The notes beneath the pieces are model-generated. The model did no database searches and was not told the DNA's origin. It was given only the letters and a program-made list of their open reading frames with translations. Positions 9,952-21,070 of a stretch of DNA of 64,000 bases are shown here, in pieces (positions within the stretch are counted from its first letter, which is position 1; every line of letters begins with the position of its first letter). A program made the position numbers and the translations under genes. Source of the DNA: Methanococcus vannielii SB (GTDB lineage: Archaea; AGJL01; Methanococci; Methanococcales; Methanococcaceae); the NCBI RefSeq assembly GCF_000017165.1, contig NC_009634.1:1472552-1536551 (forward strand). The letters run 5' to 3'.

Positions 9952-10719
9952 ATGCTTGTAATGGCAGGTCTTGGACTTTACGATGAATTAGATGTTACCC
10001 TTAAAACAGTTGAATTTGCAAAGAAAGTTGATAAAATTTACGCTGAATTTTACACCGCAATTCTAACTGGAACAACGATTGAAAAGATAGAAAAAACGCT
10101 TCAAAAGGAAATTACTGTTTTAAACAGGGAAAAAGTTGAGTACGAAACAAATAAATTAATTGAAGAGGCAAAAGAAAAAGATATAATGTTTTTAACTGCT
10201 GGAGACCCCATGGTTGCAACAACTCATGTTGATATCGCAGTTGAAGCAAGAAAAAAAGGAATTGAGGTTATAATTTTAAATGCACCGTCAATTTATTCTG
10301 CAATAGGAATTACTGGTTTACAACTCTATAAATTTGGAAAAACAACGTCAATTGTATTTCCAGAGCCGAATTATTTTCCAGAAACTCCTTATGATGTAAT
10401 AAAAGATAATTTAAGTTTGGGATACCACACATTGTGTCTTTTGGACATTCAGACCGACAAACAGAAATTCATGACCGCAAACGAAGGTTTATCTGTACTT
10501 TTAGAAATCGAGGAGAAAAGAAAAGAAAAAATAATAGATGAAAATACGAAAGTATTAGTTGTTGCAAGGGCAGGAAGTATTAAACCAGGGCTTTTTTATG
10601 GTAAAATTAAAGATTTAATAAAACACGACTTTGGAACTCCACTACACTGTGTTATTATCCTTGGAAAACTTCATTTCATGGAAACTGATGCTTTAAAATA
10701 TTTATTTGAAAATATTTAA
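9952..10719 (+). CDS. dphB: Diphthine synthase
   Basis: A 255-residue SAM-dependent methyltransferase of the tetrapyrrole-methylase fold that trimethylates the modified histidine of elongation factor 2 (diphthamide pathway). Visible are MLVMAGLGLYDELDVTLK at the start, the glycine-rich FLTAGDPMVATTH near 83-95, and GYHTLCLLDIQ near 161-171, all typical of archaeal DphB. ATG follows GGTGAAAAT. It is single, followed by a 470-bp gap that holds guide RNA 2 on the opposite strand. Confidence 0.95.
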   Translation: MLVMAGLGLYDELDVTLKTVEFAKKVDKIYAEFYTAILTGTTIEKIEKTLQKEITVLNREKVEYETNKLIEEAKEKDIMFLTAGDPMVATTHVDIAVEARKKGIEVIILNAPSIYSAIGITGLQLYKFGKTTSIVFPEPNYFPETPYDVIKDNLSLGYHTLCLLDIQTDKQKFMTANEGLSVLLEIEEKRKEKIIDENTKVLVVARAGSIKPGLFYGKIKDLIKHDFGTPLHCVIILGKLHFMETDALKYLFENI

Positions 10720-11017: not shown

Positions 11018-11094
11018 TCAGTCTCAGAGCTCATACGGTTCGTCATTATTGAATCGAGTTCAATTCGGAGCTGGTTATTTTCATCATCGACTGA
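11018..11094 (-). ncRNA. Box C/D guide RNA candidate 2, fits tRNA(CAU) targets
   Basis: Read on the minus strand: TCAGTC stem (11089-11094), box C ATGATGA (11081-11087), 12-nt guide AAATAACCAGCT (11069-11080), D' CCGA (11065-11068), an 18-nt spacer containing the hairpin ATTGAA-CTCGA-TTCAAT, C' ATGACGA (11040-11046), 12-nt guide ACCGTATGAGCT (11028-11039), box D CTGA (11024-11027), and GACTGA (11018-11023), which pairs perfectly with the 5' stem. By the fifth-nucleotide rule the D guide marks the C of AGCUCAUACGGU and the D' guide the second-block G of AGCUGGUUAUUU. The first contains CUCAUA, the start of a CAU anticodon loop with the marked base at position 34; the second contains a common tRNA D-loop with the mark at G18. 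Targets are inferred. Confidence 0.78.
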
Positions 11095-11131
11095 GATATT
11101 AAAACAATCAAAATAATTTAAAATACCTCTT

Positions 11132-11144
11132 TTATATATTTAAT
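11132..11144 (-). promoter_or_regulatory. TATA box candidate for guide RNA 2
   Basis: Minus-strand AAATATATAAAAGAG lies about 40 bp from the 5' stem of guide RNA 2. The same stretch could also contribute to a plus-strand promoter (TTTTATATATTT) for the radical SAM gene at 11190. Confidence 0.4.
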
Positions 11145-11189: not shown

Positions 11190-12719
11190 ATGAAATTTTT
11201 AATTCTTGATGGATACACTGATGAACCCGCAGGACTTGGGGTACCCCCATACATTGGCACGTATCCAAGATATACTGCAGGAGTGCTTTATAAATTTAAA
11301 CATGAAGTAGATTATATAACAATCGATAAAATAAGAAAAGAAGTTAAAACTGGATATGATTTCAATAGATACGACTGTGTAATTGCAATTTGTGGGTTTC
11401 ATACTCCGGGAAAATATTTGAATGCAAATCCTGCAACTTTAAGAGAATTCGTATCTTTACTTTACAACTTCAAAGGTTTAAAAATTTTAGGAGGCCCCGT
11501 TGCAACTAAATTTGGTTCATCCCTTGAAGGCGGGAAAATAAAAGATGAATCCAATTTAAAGTATTTCTTTGACGTGGTATCTGAAGGGGATTTAGAAGCA
11601 GTACTACATGATTTAGCACTAAATAATTTTAATCCTGAAAAAATCGATAATAAAAGGCTTAGAACTTATGAAGAACTTGATGATTTCATAAAATACGGGA
11701 CGAAAATTGTAAAACTTCACCCCAATTACCCAAATATTATTGCAGAAATAGAAACTGCAAGGGGTTGTTCTCGTGCACATAGTGGTGGATGCAGTTTTTG
11801 TACCGAACCAAAACGATATGGAACTCCAAAATTTAGAAATTCTGAAAATATAATTTTTGAAGTGAAAAACCTTTATGAAAATGGTATAGAATATTTTAGA
11901 ATCGGAAGACAGCCGTGTATATTTTCATATATGGCAAAAGATGATAGTGAAGAGATTCCTAAACCAAATGTATTTGAAATTGAAAAATTATTTAGGGGAA
12001 TAAATGCAGTTTCAAAGCCAAAAGTTCTACATATTGATAATGCAAACCCTTCTGTTATTTCAAGACATGAAAAGGAAGGAAGGGAAATTGCAAAAATTTT
12101 AGTAAGATACTGTACTCCAGGAAATGTTGCAGCATTTGGCGTTGAAAGCTTTGATGAACGAGTAATTTTGAAAAATAATCTTTTAACTGAACCAGAGGAT
12201 ATTTTAAATGCAGTTAACATTTTAAATGAAATTGGTGGAATGCGTGGAGAAAACGGTATGCCATATTTGCTTCCTGGAATAAACCTACTTTTTGGATTAA
12301 AGGGCGAATCAAACGAAACTTTTGAAATAAACTATAATTATTTAAAAGAAATATATAACTCTAAAAATTTAATTCGAAGAATAAATATAAGGCAGGCAGT
12401 TCCATTTTTTGGAACTGATTTAAATCTAAAAGACATTGAAAAAGCAAAAAAAAGAAAGAATCTCTTTGTAAAATTTAAAGAAAGAATAAGAACTGAAATT
12501 GATAATCCGATGTTAAAACGAGTACTTTTTGAAGGTACGGTTTTAAAGGATGTATTTATCGAATTAAAAGAAAAAGAAAATCTGTATTTTGGAAGGCAGT
12601 TTGGAAGCTACCCAATATTAGTTGGAATCACTGAAAAAAACTTGGAAATTGGAAATTTTGTTGACATTAGGGTAACTGGCTATGGTAGGCGCTCAATAAC
12701 TGGAAAAGTTGTAAAATAG
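11190..12719 (+). CDS. Radical SAM protein with atypical CxxxxxxxCxxC cluster motif (COG1031-like)
   Basis: About 509 residues. The ATG at 11190 is chosen because GTGAT lies just upstream; the frame also has a GTG at 11181. After an N-terminal region that resembles a cobalamin-binding-like Rossmann domain (about 1-150), the cluster motif reads RGCSRAHSGGCSFCTEP (about 193-209). The first two cysteines are therefore seven residues apart instead of three. This spacing is seen in the conserved archaeal COG1031 group, whose members are described as having a C-terminal helix-hairpin-helix. The reaction is unknown. It converges on a GT2 gene only 3 bp away. Confidence 0.8.
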   Translation: MKFLILDGYTDEPAGLGVPPYIGTYPRYTAGVLYKFKHEVDYITIDKIRKEVKTGYDFNRYDCVIAICGFHTPGKYLNANPATLREFVSLLYNFKGLKILGGPVATKFGSSLEGGKIKDESNLKYFFDVVSEGDLEAVLHDLALNNFNPEKIDNKRLRTYEELDDFIKYGTKIVKLHPNYPNIIAEIETARGCSRAHSGGCSFCTEPKRYGTPKFRNSENIIFEVKNLYENGIEYFRIGRQPCIFSYMAKDDSEEIPKPNVFEIEKLFRGINAVSKPKVLHIDNANPSVISRHEKEGREIAKILVRYCTPGNVAAFGVESFDERVILKNNLLTEPEDILNAVNILNEIGGMRGENGMPYLLPGINLLFGLKGESNETFEINYNYLKEIYNSKNLIRRINIRQAVPFFGTDLNLKDIEKAKKRKNLFVKFKERIRTEIDNPMLKRVLFEGTVLKDVFIELKEKENLYFGRQFGSYPILVGITEKNLEIGNFVDIRVTGYGRRSITGKVVK

Positions 12720-17416: not shown

Positions 17417-18727
17417 TTATAAAATTATTTTTTCAAGTTTATCGACTGCATTTACTACATCTTCTGTTTTTACACCTATTGCAGCATTCATTACAATATA
17501 ATCATAGATGTAGTTTCCAGTATAGCAATTTCCAAATTTGTCTGTTTTTGTTACGCCTCTTGGGCCCGTTACTCTTAAATTATATAGTTTTGCAGCAATT
17601 TCTACGGGGTTAGAATTTACTGAAATACATGACGCAATTGGGCTTTCTGAATCTAACAATTTATTCCCTGTTTTTTTTGATAAATCATACAATAAATCGT
17701 CCAATAGCTTTTTACTGCTTTTTTGATTTTTCATAAGTTCGATATAATTTTTAGATCCTATCGAAAGTAGTGAAACTAGGGTACTTACAATTGGCGTTGC
17801 AGATGCCCTTCCAGGATAGCAGTGAGAAATTTCTTTTAAAAAGTCCTGATTTTTTGAAAATATAATTCCTCCGCCAATTGGGGTAAGTAAGTTTTTATCA
17901 CTCGAACTTACAACTGCATCGATTCGGTATTTAAATGCTTTTTTCAGCTTTTCGATGTAAAAATTATTCTGTAAAGCGTAAGCCCCATTAACTATATGGG
18001 GAATGTCATAAATTTCGCAAATTTTTGATATTTCTAAAATATCATCGCTATTTCTTGGCGGAAAAAATGTAAGTGTACTTAAAATGCAAGGATTATTCCC
18101 TAGCTCAATTTCTTTTTTAACCGCACTTTCTATCTCCTCAACCGGAACATATACTTTATCTCCATCTAAAACCGTTTCAACAAGTCTCATCTTCATACCT
18201 GCAAATGAAACGGCTTTTATTGGACTTTTATGTGCAGCATAAGGATAAATTACAACATTTGATGCATATTTTTTTCTAGCTGCACATAAACATAGTGAAA
18301 TAGACATTCCAGTAGATACCGGTGTTGAAATTCCATATACGTCTATTCCAAGCGTTTTTAAGAAGCTTTCAAGGATTTTATTTGTAAGCGAATACATTAT
18401 ACTTGCACCGGGTGCTTTTGGCTGAGGATCTATTAAATTTCCGCTTCTACCAACCCCGTGACAGAATCCATATGATAGTTCATCATGAACACTTGAAACA
18501 ATTCTAGCTTCTCTTTCACCAATTCTAATAGATTTTGGGTCTTTATCTGTATCCATCATTGAAAGAAACCGTAAAAAAAGTCTTATTTTTTCATTGCTAA
18601 GCCCATTTTCCGGAATTTTTCGATGGTTAAATATATCTTCAATTTCCTTTAAATTTTCGGAAAATACCAATTCCCCTCTTTTTTCCATATTTTTTGGAAT
18701 CAATCCGCTAACATTAAAATCAAGCAT
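17417..18727 (-). CDS. spcS: O-phosphoseryl-tRNA(Sec):selenocysteinyl-tRNA synthase
   Basis: A 436-residue PLP enzyme that turns phosphoseryl-tRNA(Sec) into Sec-tRNA(Sec) using selenophosphate. Marks are the phosphate-binding GVGRSGNLIDPQPKAPGAS (about 91-109), the PLP lysine in SSSDKNLLTPIGGG (about 275-288), and RGVTKTDKFGNCYTGNY near the C-terminus. The archaeal length fits SepSecS rather than SepCysS. It implies that in-frame UGA may be read as Sec in this genome, but I found no gene in the window that requires it. Confidence 0.93.
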   Translation of the reverse strand: MLDFNVSGLIPKNMEKRGELVFSENLKEIEDIFNHRKIPENGLSNEKIRLFLRFLSMMDTDKDPKSIRIGEREARIVSSVHDELSYGFCHGVGRSGNLIDPQPKAPGASIMYSLTNKILESFLKTLGIDVYGISTPVSTGMSISLCLCAARKKYASNVVIYPYAAHKSPIKAVSFAGMKMRLVETVLDGDKVYVPVEEIESAVKKEIELGNNPCILSTLTFFPPRNSDDILEISKICEIYDIPHIVNGAYALQNNFYIEKLKKAFKYRIDAVVSSSDKNLLTPIGGGIIFSKNQDFLKEISHCYPGRASATPIVSTLVSLLSIGSKNYIELMKNQKSSKKLLDDLLYDLSKKTGNKLLDSESPIASCISVNSNPVEIAAKLYNLRVTGPRGVTKTDKFGNCYTGNYIYDYIVMNAAIGVKTEDVVNAVDKLEKIIL

Positions 18728-18861
18728 TCTATCACTTTTTAAATTAACTGAGTAATTAATATATCCCTTAGCGATTTTTTCGATTGTAATTAGTATTAAA
18801 TACCCGAATGATTAAATAGTTTTAGATTAACTACAAGTTTAAAATTACATTTTTTTATGGA

Positions 18862-18870
18862 TTTATATAA
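18862..18870 (+). promoter_or_regulatory. TATA box for nop5-flpA
   Basis: TTTATATAA lies about 20 bp before the Nop5 ATG at 18887. That spacing leaves almost no leader if the usual offset holds, though a GGTGAT site is present in between. Confidence 0.4.
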
Positions 18871-18886
18871 TTTTTCAGGTGATTTT

Positions 18887-20359
18887 ATGTTGTTCATTGC
18901 CTTTGCACCCTTTGGAGCATTTGCATTTGAGGAAACTTCGAAAAACGGCGAATACTCAATAGAAGATATTAAATACTATAAAATATTTGATAATGTCGAA
19001 ATTCCAAAAATTATGTATGATTTTAGGCAGGCTAATTTCGAAATTATTGGTGAAATAAAAAAAGAATGGGAAATTGAAGAAGTAGATGTGAATGTTGAAT
19101 ACACTAGTTCAAAAATAAATCCTACGGGGGAGTTTATTAGGAACAACCTATTTGAAATTGGGAAACATTACGGGATTTTTGAAGATAATGAAGACTTTTT
19201 AATAAAAATGAATGAATGGGGAACCCAATTTACAAAGTTAATGATGAAAAAATCATCGGAACAAAAAGATAAATTGATAGTACAGACAGTAAATGCTCTT
19301 GATAACCTTGATGAAACATTAAACTTGTTTTCTGAAAGACTTAGGGAATGGTATTCACTGTATTTTCCAGAAATGGATAGTTTAATTAAAAAACACGATA
19401 TTTACGTTAAATTAGTTTCTGAATATGGTGACAAGGAAGAATACACGAGAACAAGTCTTAAAAAAACAATGCCTTCAAATATTGCAAGAACGATTTCTCT
19501 TGCGGCAAAAGAGTCAATGGGGGCAGACGTATCAGAATACGACCTTGAAATAATGAAAAACCTTGCAAATGAAATAAATGGAATGTATGAATACCGTGAA
19601 AAGTTACAAGAGTACTTAGAAGCTTCAATGAAGGAAATTGCGCCGAATTTAACTAAACTTGCAGGTGCTTCAATTGGTGCAAGATTAATAAGCCTTGCTG
19701 GGGGAATGGAACGGCTTATAAAACTTCCAGCGTCAACTATTCAGGTAATTGGTGCAGAAAAAGCATTATTTGCACACTTAAGGGAAAGAGCAGCACCTCC
19801 AAAACATGGTATAATATTCCAACACCCCCTTATTCAGGGAAATCCGTGGTGGATTCATGGAAAAGTTGCAAGGGCAATTTCATGTAAAATTTCTATTGCA
19901 ATAAGGGCGGACGTTTTTGGAAATGACATTTCAGAAATGCTTTTTGAAGATATGAATAAAAAAGTTGAAATGATAAAGGAAAAATTCCCAGAACCGACCA
20001 AAAAGAGAAGACCAAGGCCTGACACAAGAGACTTTAAAGGTAAAGGCGGGCCTAAAAGAGATGATGGAAGGCCAAGAGATGGAAAGCCATTTAATAAGCC
20101 AAAAAGTGGTGAAAAAGATGGAAAACCACGAGATGGAAAACCACGGGGAAATAAGCCGTTTGGTGAAAAGCCAAGGGGAGATCGGAAAAAAGATGATGGA
20201 AGGCCAAGAGATGGAAAGCCATTTAATAAGCCAAAAAGTGGTGAAAAAGATGGAAATAGGCCAAAACCACAAAATGAAAGAACAGGCGAAAAAAGAGGCG
20301 GACCGCCAAAACCTAAAATGGAAAGAAAAGTAATTGGAAAAACTTCTTCACAAAATTAA
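18887..20359 (+). CDS. Box C/D sRNP core protein Nop5/Nop56/58
   Basis: About 490 residues. It scaffolds the rRNA/tRNA 2'-O-methylation complex between L7Ae-bound guide RNA and fibrillarin. The Nop domain has IQVIGAEKALFAHLRERAAPPKHGIIFQHPLIQ (about 278-310), the RNP-binding signature; a coiled coil precedes it. I use the ATG after GGTGATTTT, 10 codons inside the open frame. The C-terminal 110 residues are a Lys/Arg/Gly/Asp/Pro-rich tail that contains an in-frame duplicated segment. flpA follows 18 bp later. Confidence 0.96.
   Translation: MLFIAFAPFGAFAFEETSKNGEYSIEDIKYYKIFDNVEIPKIMYDFRQANFEIIGEIKKEWEIEEVDVNVEYTSSKINPTGEFIRNNLFEIGKHYGIFEDNEDFLIKMNEWGTQFTKLMMKKSSEQKDKLIVQTVNALDNLDETLNLFSERLREWYSLYFPEMDSLIKKHDIYVKLVSEYGDKEEYTRTSLKKTMPSNIARTISLAAKESMGADVSEYDLEIMKNLANEINGMYEYREKLQEYLEASMKEIAPNLTKLAGASIGARLISLAGGMERLIKLPASTIQVIGAEKALFAHLRERAAPPKHGIIFQHPLIQGNPWWIHGKVARAISCKISIAIRADVFGNDISEMLFEDMNKKVEMIKEKFPEPTKKRRPRPDTRDFKGKGGPKRDDGRPRDGKPFNKPKSGEKDGKPRDGKPRGNKPFGEKPRGDRKKDDGRPRDGKPFNKPKSGEKDGNRPKPQNERTGEKRGGPPKPKMERKVIGKTSSQN
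20060..20256 (+). repeat. 65-bp direct repeat in the nop5 tail
   Basis: Two identical 65-bp copies at 20060-20124 and 20192-20256, offset by 132 bp (44 codons), so the frame is kept. Each encodes DDGRPRDGKPFNKPKSGEKDG. Such a repeat could recombine and change tail length between strains without disrupting the reading frame. Confidence 0.95.
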
Positions 20360-20377
20360 GAACTGGTGGTGAATTAA

Positions 20378-21070
20378 ATGGAAAAAATAAAAGTAAAAGA
20401 AATATTTAGTAACGTTTACGGCGTAGACCTTGGAGACGGATTAAAAAGAATTGCTACAAAATCTTTAGCTCCTGGAAAACGAGTTTACGGGGAAAAATTA
20501 ATTTATTCTGAAAATAAAGAATATAGGATATGGAACCCAAATAAAAGTAAGCTTGGAGCGGCAATAATAAATGGTTTAAAAAAAATGCCTATAAAAAAAG
20601 GAACAAAAGTGCTGTATTTGGGGGCTTCTGCAGGAACTACTCCTTCACACGTTTCAGACATTTCTGAAGATACAATAGTTTATGCAGTAGAATTTGCACC
20701 AAGAATAATGAGAGAATTTATAGATTCATGTAATGAGAGAATAAATTTAATTCCTATTTTAGGGGATGCAAATAGGCCTTTTGAATATTCGAATATCGTT
20801 GGAAAAGTAGATGTAATATTTGAAGATGTTGCCCAGCCAAATCAGGCAGAAATTTTAGTTAAAAATGCAAAATGGTTTTTAAATAAAGATGGATATGCAA
20901 TGATATCAATTAAGGCAAGAAGTATAGATGTTACTAAAAATCCAAAAGAAATATTTTTAGAACAAAAAAAGATACTGATTGAAGGCGGATTTGATATAGT
21001 TGATGAAATAAACATTGAACCCTTTGAAAAAGACCATATAATGTTTGTTGGAATCTGGAAAGGAAATTAA
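20378..21070 (+). CDS. flpA: Fibrillarin-like rRNA/tRNA 2'-O-methyltransferase
   Basis: A 230-residue SAM-dependent methyltransferase, catalytic subunit of the box C/D sRNP. The SAM site is VLYLGASAGTTPSHVSDI (about 75-92), and VDVIFEDVAQPNQAEIL (about 146-162) matches the fibrillarin D.AQ..Q signature. The catalytic Lys is in ISIKARSID (about 181-189). It is coupled to nop5. Together with the two guide RNAs at 8.4 and 11.05 kb, the window holds most of a methylation machine; L7Ae is elsewhere. Confidence 0.97.
   Translation: MEKIKVKEIFSNVYGVDLGDGLKRIATKSLAPGKRVYGEKLIYSENKEYRIWNPNKSKLGAAIINGLKKMPIKKGTKVLYLGASAGTTPSHVSDISEDTIVYAVEFAPRIMREFIDSCNERINLIPILGDANRPFEYSNIVGKVDVIFEDVAQPNQAEILVKNAKWFLNKDGYAMISIKARSIDVTKNPKEIFLEQKKILIEGGFDIVDEINIEPFEKDHIMFVGIWKGN

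Follow-up and report, generated by a model that had tools for sequence, protein, structure and literature searches.

The window (i.e., the whole 64,000-nucleotide stretch analysed, from a 1.72-Mb archaeal genome in a single contig) contains a box C/D small RNA (sRNA) between dphB and a gene for a radical SAM/B12-like protein (Table 1). Along the minus strand from 11094 to 11018 it reads UCAGUC-G-AUGAUGA-AAAUAACCAGCU-CCGA-AUUGAACUCGAUUCAAU-AAUGACGA-ACCGUAUGAGCU-CUGA-GACUGA, with boxes and stem evident directly from the letters. The initial annotation had described a C, D', C', D set with two 12-nt guides and a perfect 6-bp terminal stem between these two neighbours, and all of this was recovered. 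The D' (CCGA) and C' (AAUGACGA) boxes are off consensus here and near or at consensus in relatives, with CUGA and AAUGAAGA, respectively, in three genomes of the same genus. The putative TATA element upstream of the sRNA could alternatively serve the divergent radical SAM gene.

Table 1. Features of the sRNA locus and of its protein partners, in window coordinates.
Feature	Position	Strand	Basis or remark
Whole box C/D sRNA, 77 nt	11018-11094	-	boxes and stem visible in the sequence; conserved in place in three further genomes of the genus
Terminal stem, 5' half, UCAGUC	11089-11094	-	pairs with 11018-11023; A-U to G-C in one relative
C box, AUGAUGA	11081-11087	-	matches RUGAUGA
D' guide, AAAUAACCAGCU, 12 nt; predicted target G18 of elongator tRNA-Met	11069-11080	-	pairing; identical in four genomes
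D' box, CCGA (CUGA in relatives)	11065-11068	-	comparison of four genomes
D'-C' linker hairpin, AUUGAA-CUCGA-UUCAAU, 17 nt	11048-11064	-	two-sided pair change between genomes
C' box, AAUGACGA (AAUGAAGA in relatives)	11040-11047	-	comparison of four genomes
D guide, ACCGUAUGAGCU, 12 nt; predicted target C34 of unspliced elongator pre-tRNA-Met	11028-11039	-	pairing and intron covariation
D box, CUGA	11024-11027	-	read directly
Terminal stem, 3' half, GACUGA	11018-11023	-	read directly; perfect 6-bp stem
Possible TATA element, UAUAUAAAAG, upstream of sRNA	11129-11138	-	identical in four genomes; putative function
dphB, diphthine synthase	9952-10719	+	TIGR00522; neighbour of sRNA
Radical SAM/B12-like protein	11190-12719	+	neighbour on the other side of the sRNA
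Nop5/Nop56-type protein (aNOP56), required partner of box C/D RNAs	18857-20359	+	NF011121 above cut-off
Fibrillarin-like 2'-O-methyltransferase, enzyme guided by box C/D RNAs	20378-21070	+	PF01269; NF003279 above cut-off

The fibrillarin and Nop5 genes lie approximately 8-10 kb from the sRNA, within the same window. The Nop5 protein bears a long, charged C-terminal tail with GRPRDGKPFNKPKSGEKD-like repeats, outside of the matched domain (residues 11-403 of 500). Adjoining the Nop5-fibrillarin pair (18857-21070) is a gene for O-phosphoseryl-tRNA(Sec) selenium transferase (SpcS; 17417-18727, minus strand), which points to an archaeon that makes selenoproteins.

With the present genome included, the same sRNA stands beside dphB in four genomes of the genus, where both guides are identical at 12 of 12 positions and the linker and flanks vary. 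One pair of the linker hairpin is G-C here and A-U in the other three genomes, both sides having changed, while an A-U pair of the terminal stem has become G-C in one relative. In a wider search, the core of the D guide joined to the D box (TATGAGC-N-CTGA) was located in 38 of 41 archaeal genomes, at roughly one copy apiece, with nearly zero sites for the reversed control. By this search, RNAs carrying the same D guide are spread across the Methanococcales, and nearly all matches within that order have a C' box at the correct distance; the few extra matches without boxes are chance. Because the guides stay identical while linker and flanks drift, and because the D-guide pattern recurs about once per genome against about zero in the control, the sRNA is more than a chance arrangement. 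A fortuitous assembly of boxes in an AT-rich intergenic region, from which no sRNA is transcribed, would fit the off-consensus D' and C' boxes of this genome; however, it would have to account for a locus kept in four genomes, for two-sided changes in two helices, and for roughly one such sequence per genome across the Methanococcales with controls near zero, and we regard it as extremely improbable. In relatives, the D and D' guides share their final eight letters, AGCTCTGA, when the adjoining box is counted in (11024-11031 and 11065-11072 on the minus strand of the window), a possible sign that one half of the sRNA derives from a copy of the other.

In an Rfam cmscan at relaxed threshold, the top model by score was the haloarchaeal sR-tMet (RF02163), aligned over its full length (31.2 bits, E 2.8e-4). 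No Rfam family reached its cut-off for the sRNA, the gathering score of sR-tMet being 50; since 31.2 bits falls below this value, the sRNA is a relative of sR-tMet by function and layout and no formal member of RF02163. As described in the passage of PMC4033218 citing Joardar et al. (2011), sR-tMet is likewise free-standing, with a D guide for C34 of the intron-containing elongator tRNA-Met, and both RNAs possess a D'-C' hairpin. They differ in that the Rfam consensus guide has CCC where the present guide has CCG (intron CGG), and in that the D' guide of sR-tMet is unrelated to the present one, which fits the D-loop of the same tRNA. A similar likeness holds for sR49 of Pyrococcus (Clouet d'Orval et al. 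2001, as described in PMC2584109 and PMC7994747), a separate sRNA predicted to guide Cm34 formation on elongator tRNA-Met; there, passages of PMC2584109 state that part of the intron pairs and that methylation comes before splicing, as we propose here. This comparison is one of descriptions and not of sequences, and a D-loop guide is not mentioned in those two descriptions of sR49. The initial annotation had likewise named a box C/D guide for C34 of elongator tRNA-Met as known from other archaea. We consider that the present sRNA, more probably than not, acts in trans as an archaeal box C/D guide of the kind represented by sR49 and sR-tMet.

Both guides were scanned against all ~36-37 tRNAs of the genome and one rRNA operon. 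Four of these tRNA genes have the anticodon CAU, falling into three kinds, i.e., two identical initiators (L013 and L014), an Ile-type tRNA (L007), and an intron-bearing elongator (L029). Archaea possess three kinds of CAU tRNA (PMC2584109), and L007 was assigned as tRNA-Ile(CAU) from this rule and from its missing intron. The elongator tRNA-Met gene begins with GCCGAGGTGGCTTAGGCTGGTTATAGCGCTCGGCTCATA, followed across the exon-intron junction by CGGAAATTCC; its identity and intron were set by hand from anticodon-stem pairing. ARAGORN labels it (L029:1501-1615) as tRNA-Ser(CGA) and assigns it an incorrect intron; the automatic annotation of the genome may therefore have no elongator tRNA-Met at all.

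Positions 2-11 of the D guide form 10 of 10 Watson-Crick pairs with GCUCAUACGG of pre-tRNA-Met, the best target in the scan, reading GCUCAUA/CGG across the exon-intron junction (slash). Seven exon bases (G31 to A37) and intron bases 1-3 thus make up the duplex, with C34 opposite position 5, the fifth base counted from the box, as the initial annotation had anticipated for a CAU tRNA; position 1 is a G-U pair and position 12 a mismatch. The same annotation had made a match of C38-G39 to the actual tRNA a requirement. The CGG is indeed matched, but it constitutes intron bases 1-3 and is absent from the mature tRNA. Also as envisaged there, the best targets of both guides lie in one CAU tRNA, namely elongator pre-tRNA-Met (10 pairs for D, 9 for D'), although the full 12-nt matches it supposed shrink to 10 nt (D) and 9 nt (D'), each extended by a G-U at position 1.

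Other candidate targets of the D guide were set aside. Spliced tRNA-Met, the initiator, and the Ile-type CAU tRNA each offer only 7 pairs in the 2-11 window, and mature CAU tRNAs were accordingly rejected against 10/10 on the precursor. Both tRNA-Gly(GCC), with 8 pairs at positions 4-11 and none at 2-3, and rRNA, with a best run of 7 pairs, are weaker. By pairing, the D guide very probably directs Cm34 formation on the unspliced elongator pre-tRNA-Met. Guidance at C34 of elongator tRNA-Met is an already known kind of guiding, of which this D half is a new, well-supported instance.

Guide positions 9, 10, and 11 pair with intron bases 1-3 in 58 of 58 archaeal genomes, which are related, such that independent changes are far fewer than 58, and which include only those in which an intron-bearing elongator tRNA was found. 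Three pair types occur at each of positions 9 and 11; positions 2-8 were fixed by the search patterns and carry no covariation information. Every Methanococcales elongator tRNA-Met gene read has an intron starting CGG (guide CCG), while in outgroups the guide has CCC, ACT, or GCT and the intron of the same genome has GGG, AGT, or AGC. These four guide classes mean that guide and intron have changed together at least three times. Outside of this window, position 1 pairs in 0 of 36 cases and position 12 in 18 of 58, in line with the duplex of 8-10 bp for high activity attributed to Yang et al. (2016) in PMC7089733. Since positions 9-11 pair with the intron without exception, and guide and intron change jointly at 9 and 11, C34 would be read on the unspliced pre-tRNA. 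From 18 candidates, Grosjean et al. (2008; PMC2584109) had concluded that the C34 guide pairs with part of the intron and that methylation has to come before splicing; with 58 genomes, the covariation carries this conclusion further and adds the edges of the window.

The D guide could instead act on all CAU tRNAs, or on spliced tRNA-Met, through the seven exon pairs, with intron pairing being incidental. GCUCAUA is common to initiator and elongator, and the text of Wolff et al. (PMC7668247) reports Cm34 in the initiator tRNA-Met of M. maripaludis and P. furiosus. Yet pairing in 58 of 58 genomes despite changing intron bases, the sharp end at position 12, and a seven-pair duplex that is shorter than the 8-10 bp cited in PMC7089733 for high activity render such a broad specificity highly improbable, and we retain the unspliced elongator precursor as the target of the D guide.

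A few genomes fall outside of the 58. The tRNA-Met genes of Methanofastidiosum genomes (guide GCT) were searched, and an intron-bearing elongator tRNA was not found among them. Two Altiarchaeales genomes (G041 and G045) were left out; there, the intron starts AGA where the guide expects AGC (2 of 3 matching). The CAU tRNA in question (G041:C8:11338-11400 and G045:C38:530-576) has the 3' part of an initiator tRNA together with the intron starting AGA, and thus looks, from its sequence, like an intron-bearing initiator. The Thermococcus-like genome G040 was also left out; its intron starts GGG, and its guide was not found by the pattern.

For the D' guide, the best target in the scan of tRNAs and one rRNA operon is GCUGGUUAU, the D-loop of elongator tRNA-Met, which would mark G18, the nucleotide originally named. 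The claim for this site draws on the base pairing, on how seldom shuffled guides match it, and on the retention of the guide in four genomes, with a 23S match competing. Nine consecutive Watson-Crick pairs form within the 2-11 window, plus a G-U at position 1. The runners-up are the Ile-type tRNA with 8 pairs and 23S AGCUGGUU (L307:2782) with 7, or 8 if position 1 is counted; a dual guide ought to have at least 8 pairs around G18 and to fit better there than at other tRNA or rRNA sites, and the values obtained are 9 versus 8 and 7. Among 60,000 shuffled D' guides, at least 9 pairs on this pre-tRNA arise with P ~0.0005. Of 1,000 shuffled guides, ~19% found a site with at least 8 pairs when pre-tRNA-Met and the rRNA operon were both open to them; a match somewhere is therefore unremarkable, while a 9-pair match to this particular tRNA is not.

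Among homologues, the G18-type D' guide is confined to the four Methanococcus-type genomes, in which it is invariant, as is the tRNA-Met D-loop GGCTGGTTAT. The D' guides of Methanocaldococcaceae-type genomes instead fit 23S at L307:2759, 23 nt upstream of L307:2782, and those of the G036 type fit 23S at L307:4507; most others fit nothing convincing. To judge by these sequences, the D' half is replaced quickly, and the G18 guide is of recent and local origin.

Such turnover bears on two further explanations of the D' guide. The sRNA might be an ordinary tRNA/rRNA double guide, with its D guide on C34 of pre-tRNA-Met and its D' guide on 23S AGCUGGUU. This would agree with the eight Watson-Crick pairs at L307:2782 (position 1 included) and with the aim of the Methanocaldococcaceae homologues at L307:2759, but the 2-11 window holds 7 pairs there versus 9 on tRNA-Met, with positions 9 and 10 fitting the tRNA and not the rRNA, and we judge an rRNA target unlikely. 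Slightly less unlikely, though still doubtful, is an orphan D' guide whose D-loop match is coincidental, leaving the C34 guide alone functional. Fast turnover among homologues, most of them without a convincing target, is compatible with an orphan guide, as are the ~19% of shuffles with at least 8 pairs and the observation that tRNA-targeting sRNAs of Pyrobaculum usually have one guide without a target (PMC7994747); Gm18 is also not named for M. maripaludis in the main text of PMC7668247. Against coincidence stand the retention of all 12 guide bases in four genomes while the linker drifts, and the 9-pair match itself (P ~0.0005). On this balance of pairing and conservation, methylation of G18 on the same elongator tRNA-Met is about an even bet, and more probable than any single rival.

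The published modification data temper this estimate. We found no report of Gm18 in Methanococcus, and the main text of PMC7668247 (Wolff et al. 2020) names none for the tRNA-Met of M. maripaludis. For mature tRNA-Met of that organism, the same text names Cm34 for the initiator and not for the elongator, and it judges guided methylation in M. maripaludis to be unlikely. This text is the strongest contrary point, because of which we hold the G18 claim near one half. If the assignment by Wolff et al. holds, then initiator C34 is methylated by some other activity, unless the text covers only part of the data.

Several homologues have features of their own. Archaeal D'-C' linkers are usually a few nt long; those of L122, L123, and L135 (genomes G005, G002, and G008) span 39-46 nt and resemble an extended hairpin. 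In L122 and L123, the 5' D-arm of tRNA-Lys, GTAGCTTAGT, is a possible target of the D' guide ATTAAGCTAC (10 pairs with one G-U), a tRNA D-arm other than the one matched by the sRNA of the window. A D' guide near ATGATGGGCGAT, conserved in L139, L195, L201, and L209, fits 23S TTCGCCCATT (L307:4507), as in a tRNA/rRNA double guide. In L154, L155, and other Methanobrevibacter/Methanosphaera loci among L154-L273, the C34 guide comes directly after the first box, followed a few nt on by a D/D'-type box and TGATGA; this order suggests that the C34 guide occupies the D' position in an RNA located just behind a gene end.

From the anatomy, the pairings, the intron covariation, and the conservation, we infer the following course of events. 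Upon transcription, the sRNA would assemble with L7Ae, Nop5, and fibrillarin. The resulting RNP would meet pre-tRNA-Met before intron removal and probably before the tRNA has folded fully, since G18 is buried in the elbow of the mature molecule. The D guide would displace a helix predicted to form between the anticodon side and the intron, and the wobble base C34 would receive its 2'-O-methyl group; the D' guide, as present here and in the three sister genomes, would serve G18 in the D-loop of the same precursor. As only seven bases separate the two target stretches, G18 and C34 would probably be served one after the other. The intron would thus function as an identity tag, given that the other CAU tRNAs and the spliced tRNA match at only seven positions, ensuring that the right CAU tRNA is methylated, and before splicing. 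Taken as a whole, i.e., one free-standing sRNA that methylates a single tRNA at both G18 and C34 and acts on the unspliced precursor alone, with the intron kept as an identity tag that fixes the order of methylation then splicing, this reading has a probability of roughly 0.4 in our estimation.

The intronic box C/D RNA of pre-tRNA-Trp (sR50 / H. volcanii) directs two guides at one pre-tRNA, in which C34 and U39 are methylated in sequence, across the exon-intron borders (PMC7994747); there, however, the guide is the intron itself, whereas the present guide RNA has its own gene and a predicted second site in the D-loop. For tRNA-Gln of S. acidocaldarius, box C/D-guided methylation at wobble U34 and at G18 is reported as observed (Ziesche et al. 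2004, as cited in PMC7668247); this is a different tRNA in a different phylum. The C34 half of the present sRNA is of a known kind, while a G18 guide, as second guide on the same tRNA, is a probable new variant.

Ultimately, these comparisons offer a concrete reason for the fixed first intron bases of tRNA-Met, in that the guide would rely on them to distinguish the three kinds of CAU tRNA. The covariation widens the earlier statement to the Methanococcales, Methanobacteriales, Thermococcales, and several uncultured lineages. From the side of evolution, the unpaired positions 1 and 12 independently confirm the reading window of 10 nt that had been measured in vitro. Should the D' half hold, there would be guided Gm18 formation in a mesophilic methanogen genus, for which the main text of the PMC7668247 survey judged guided methylation to be unlikely, and both guides of one free RNA would act on one tRNA, as opposed to the one-guide pattern in Pyrobaculum (PMC7994747).
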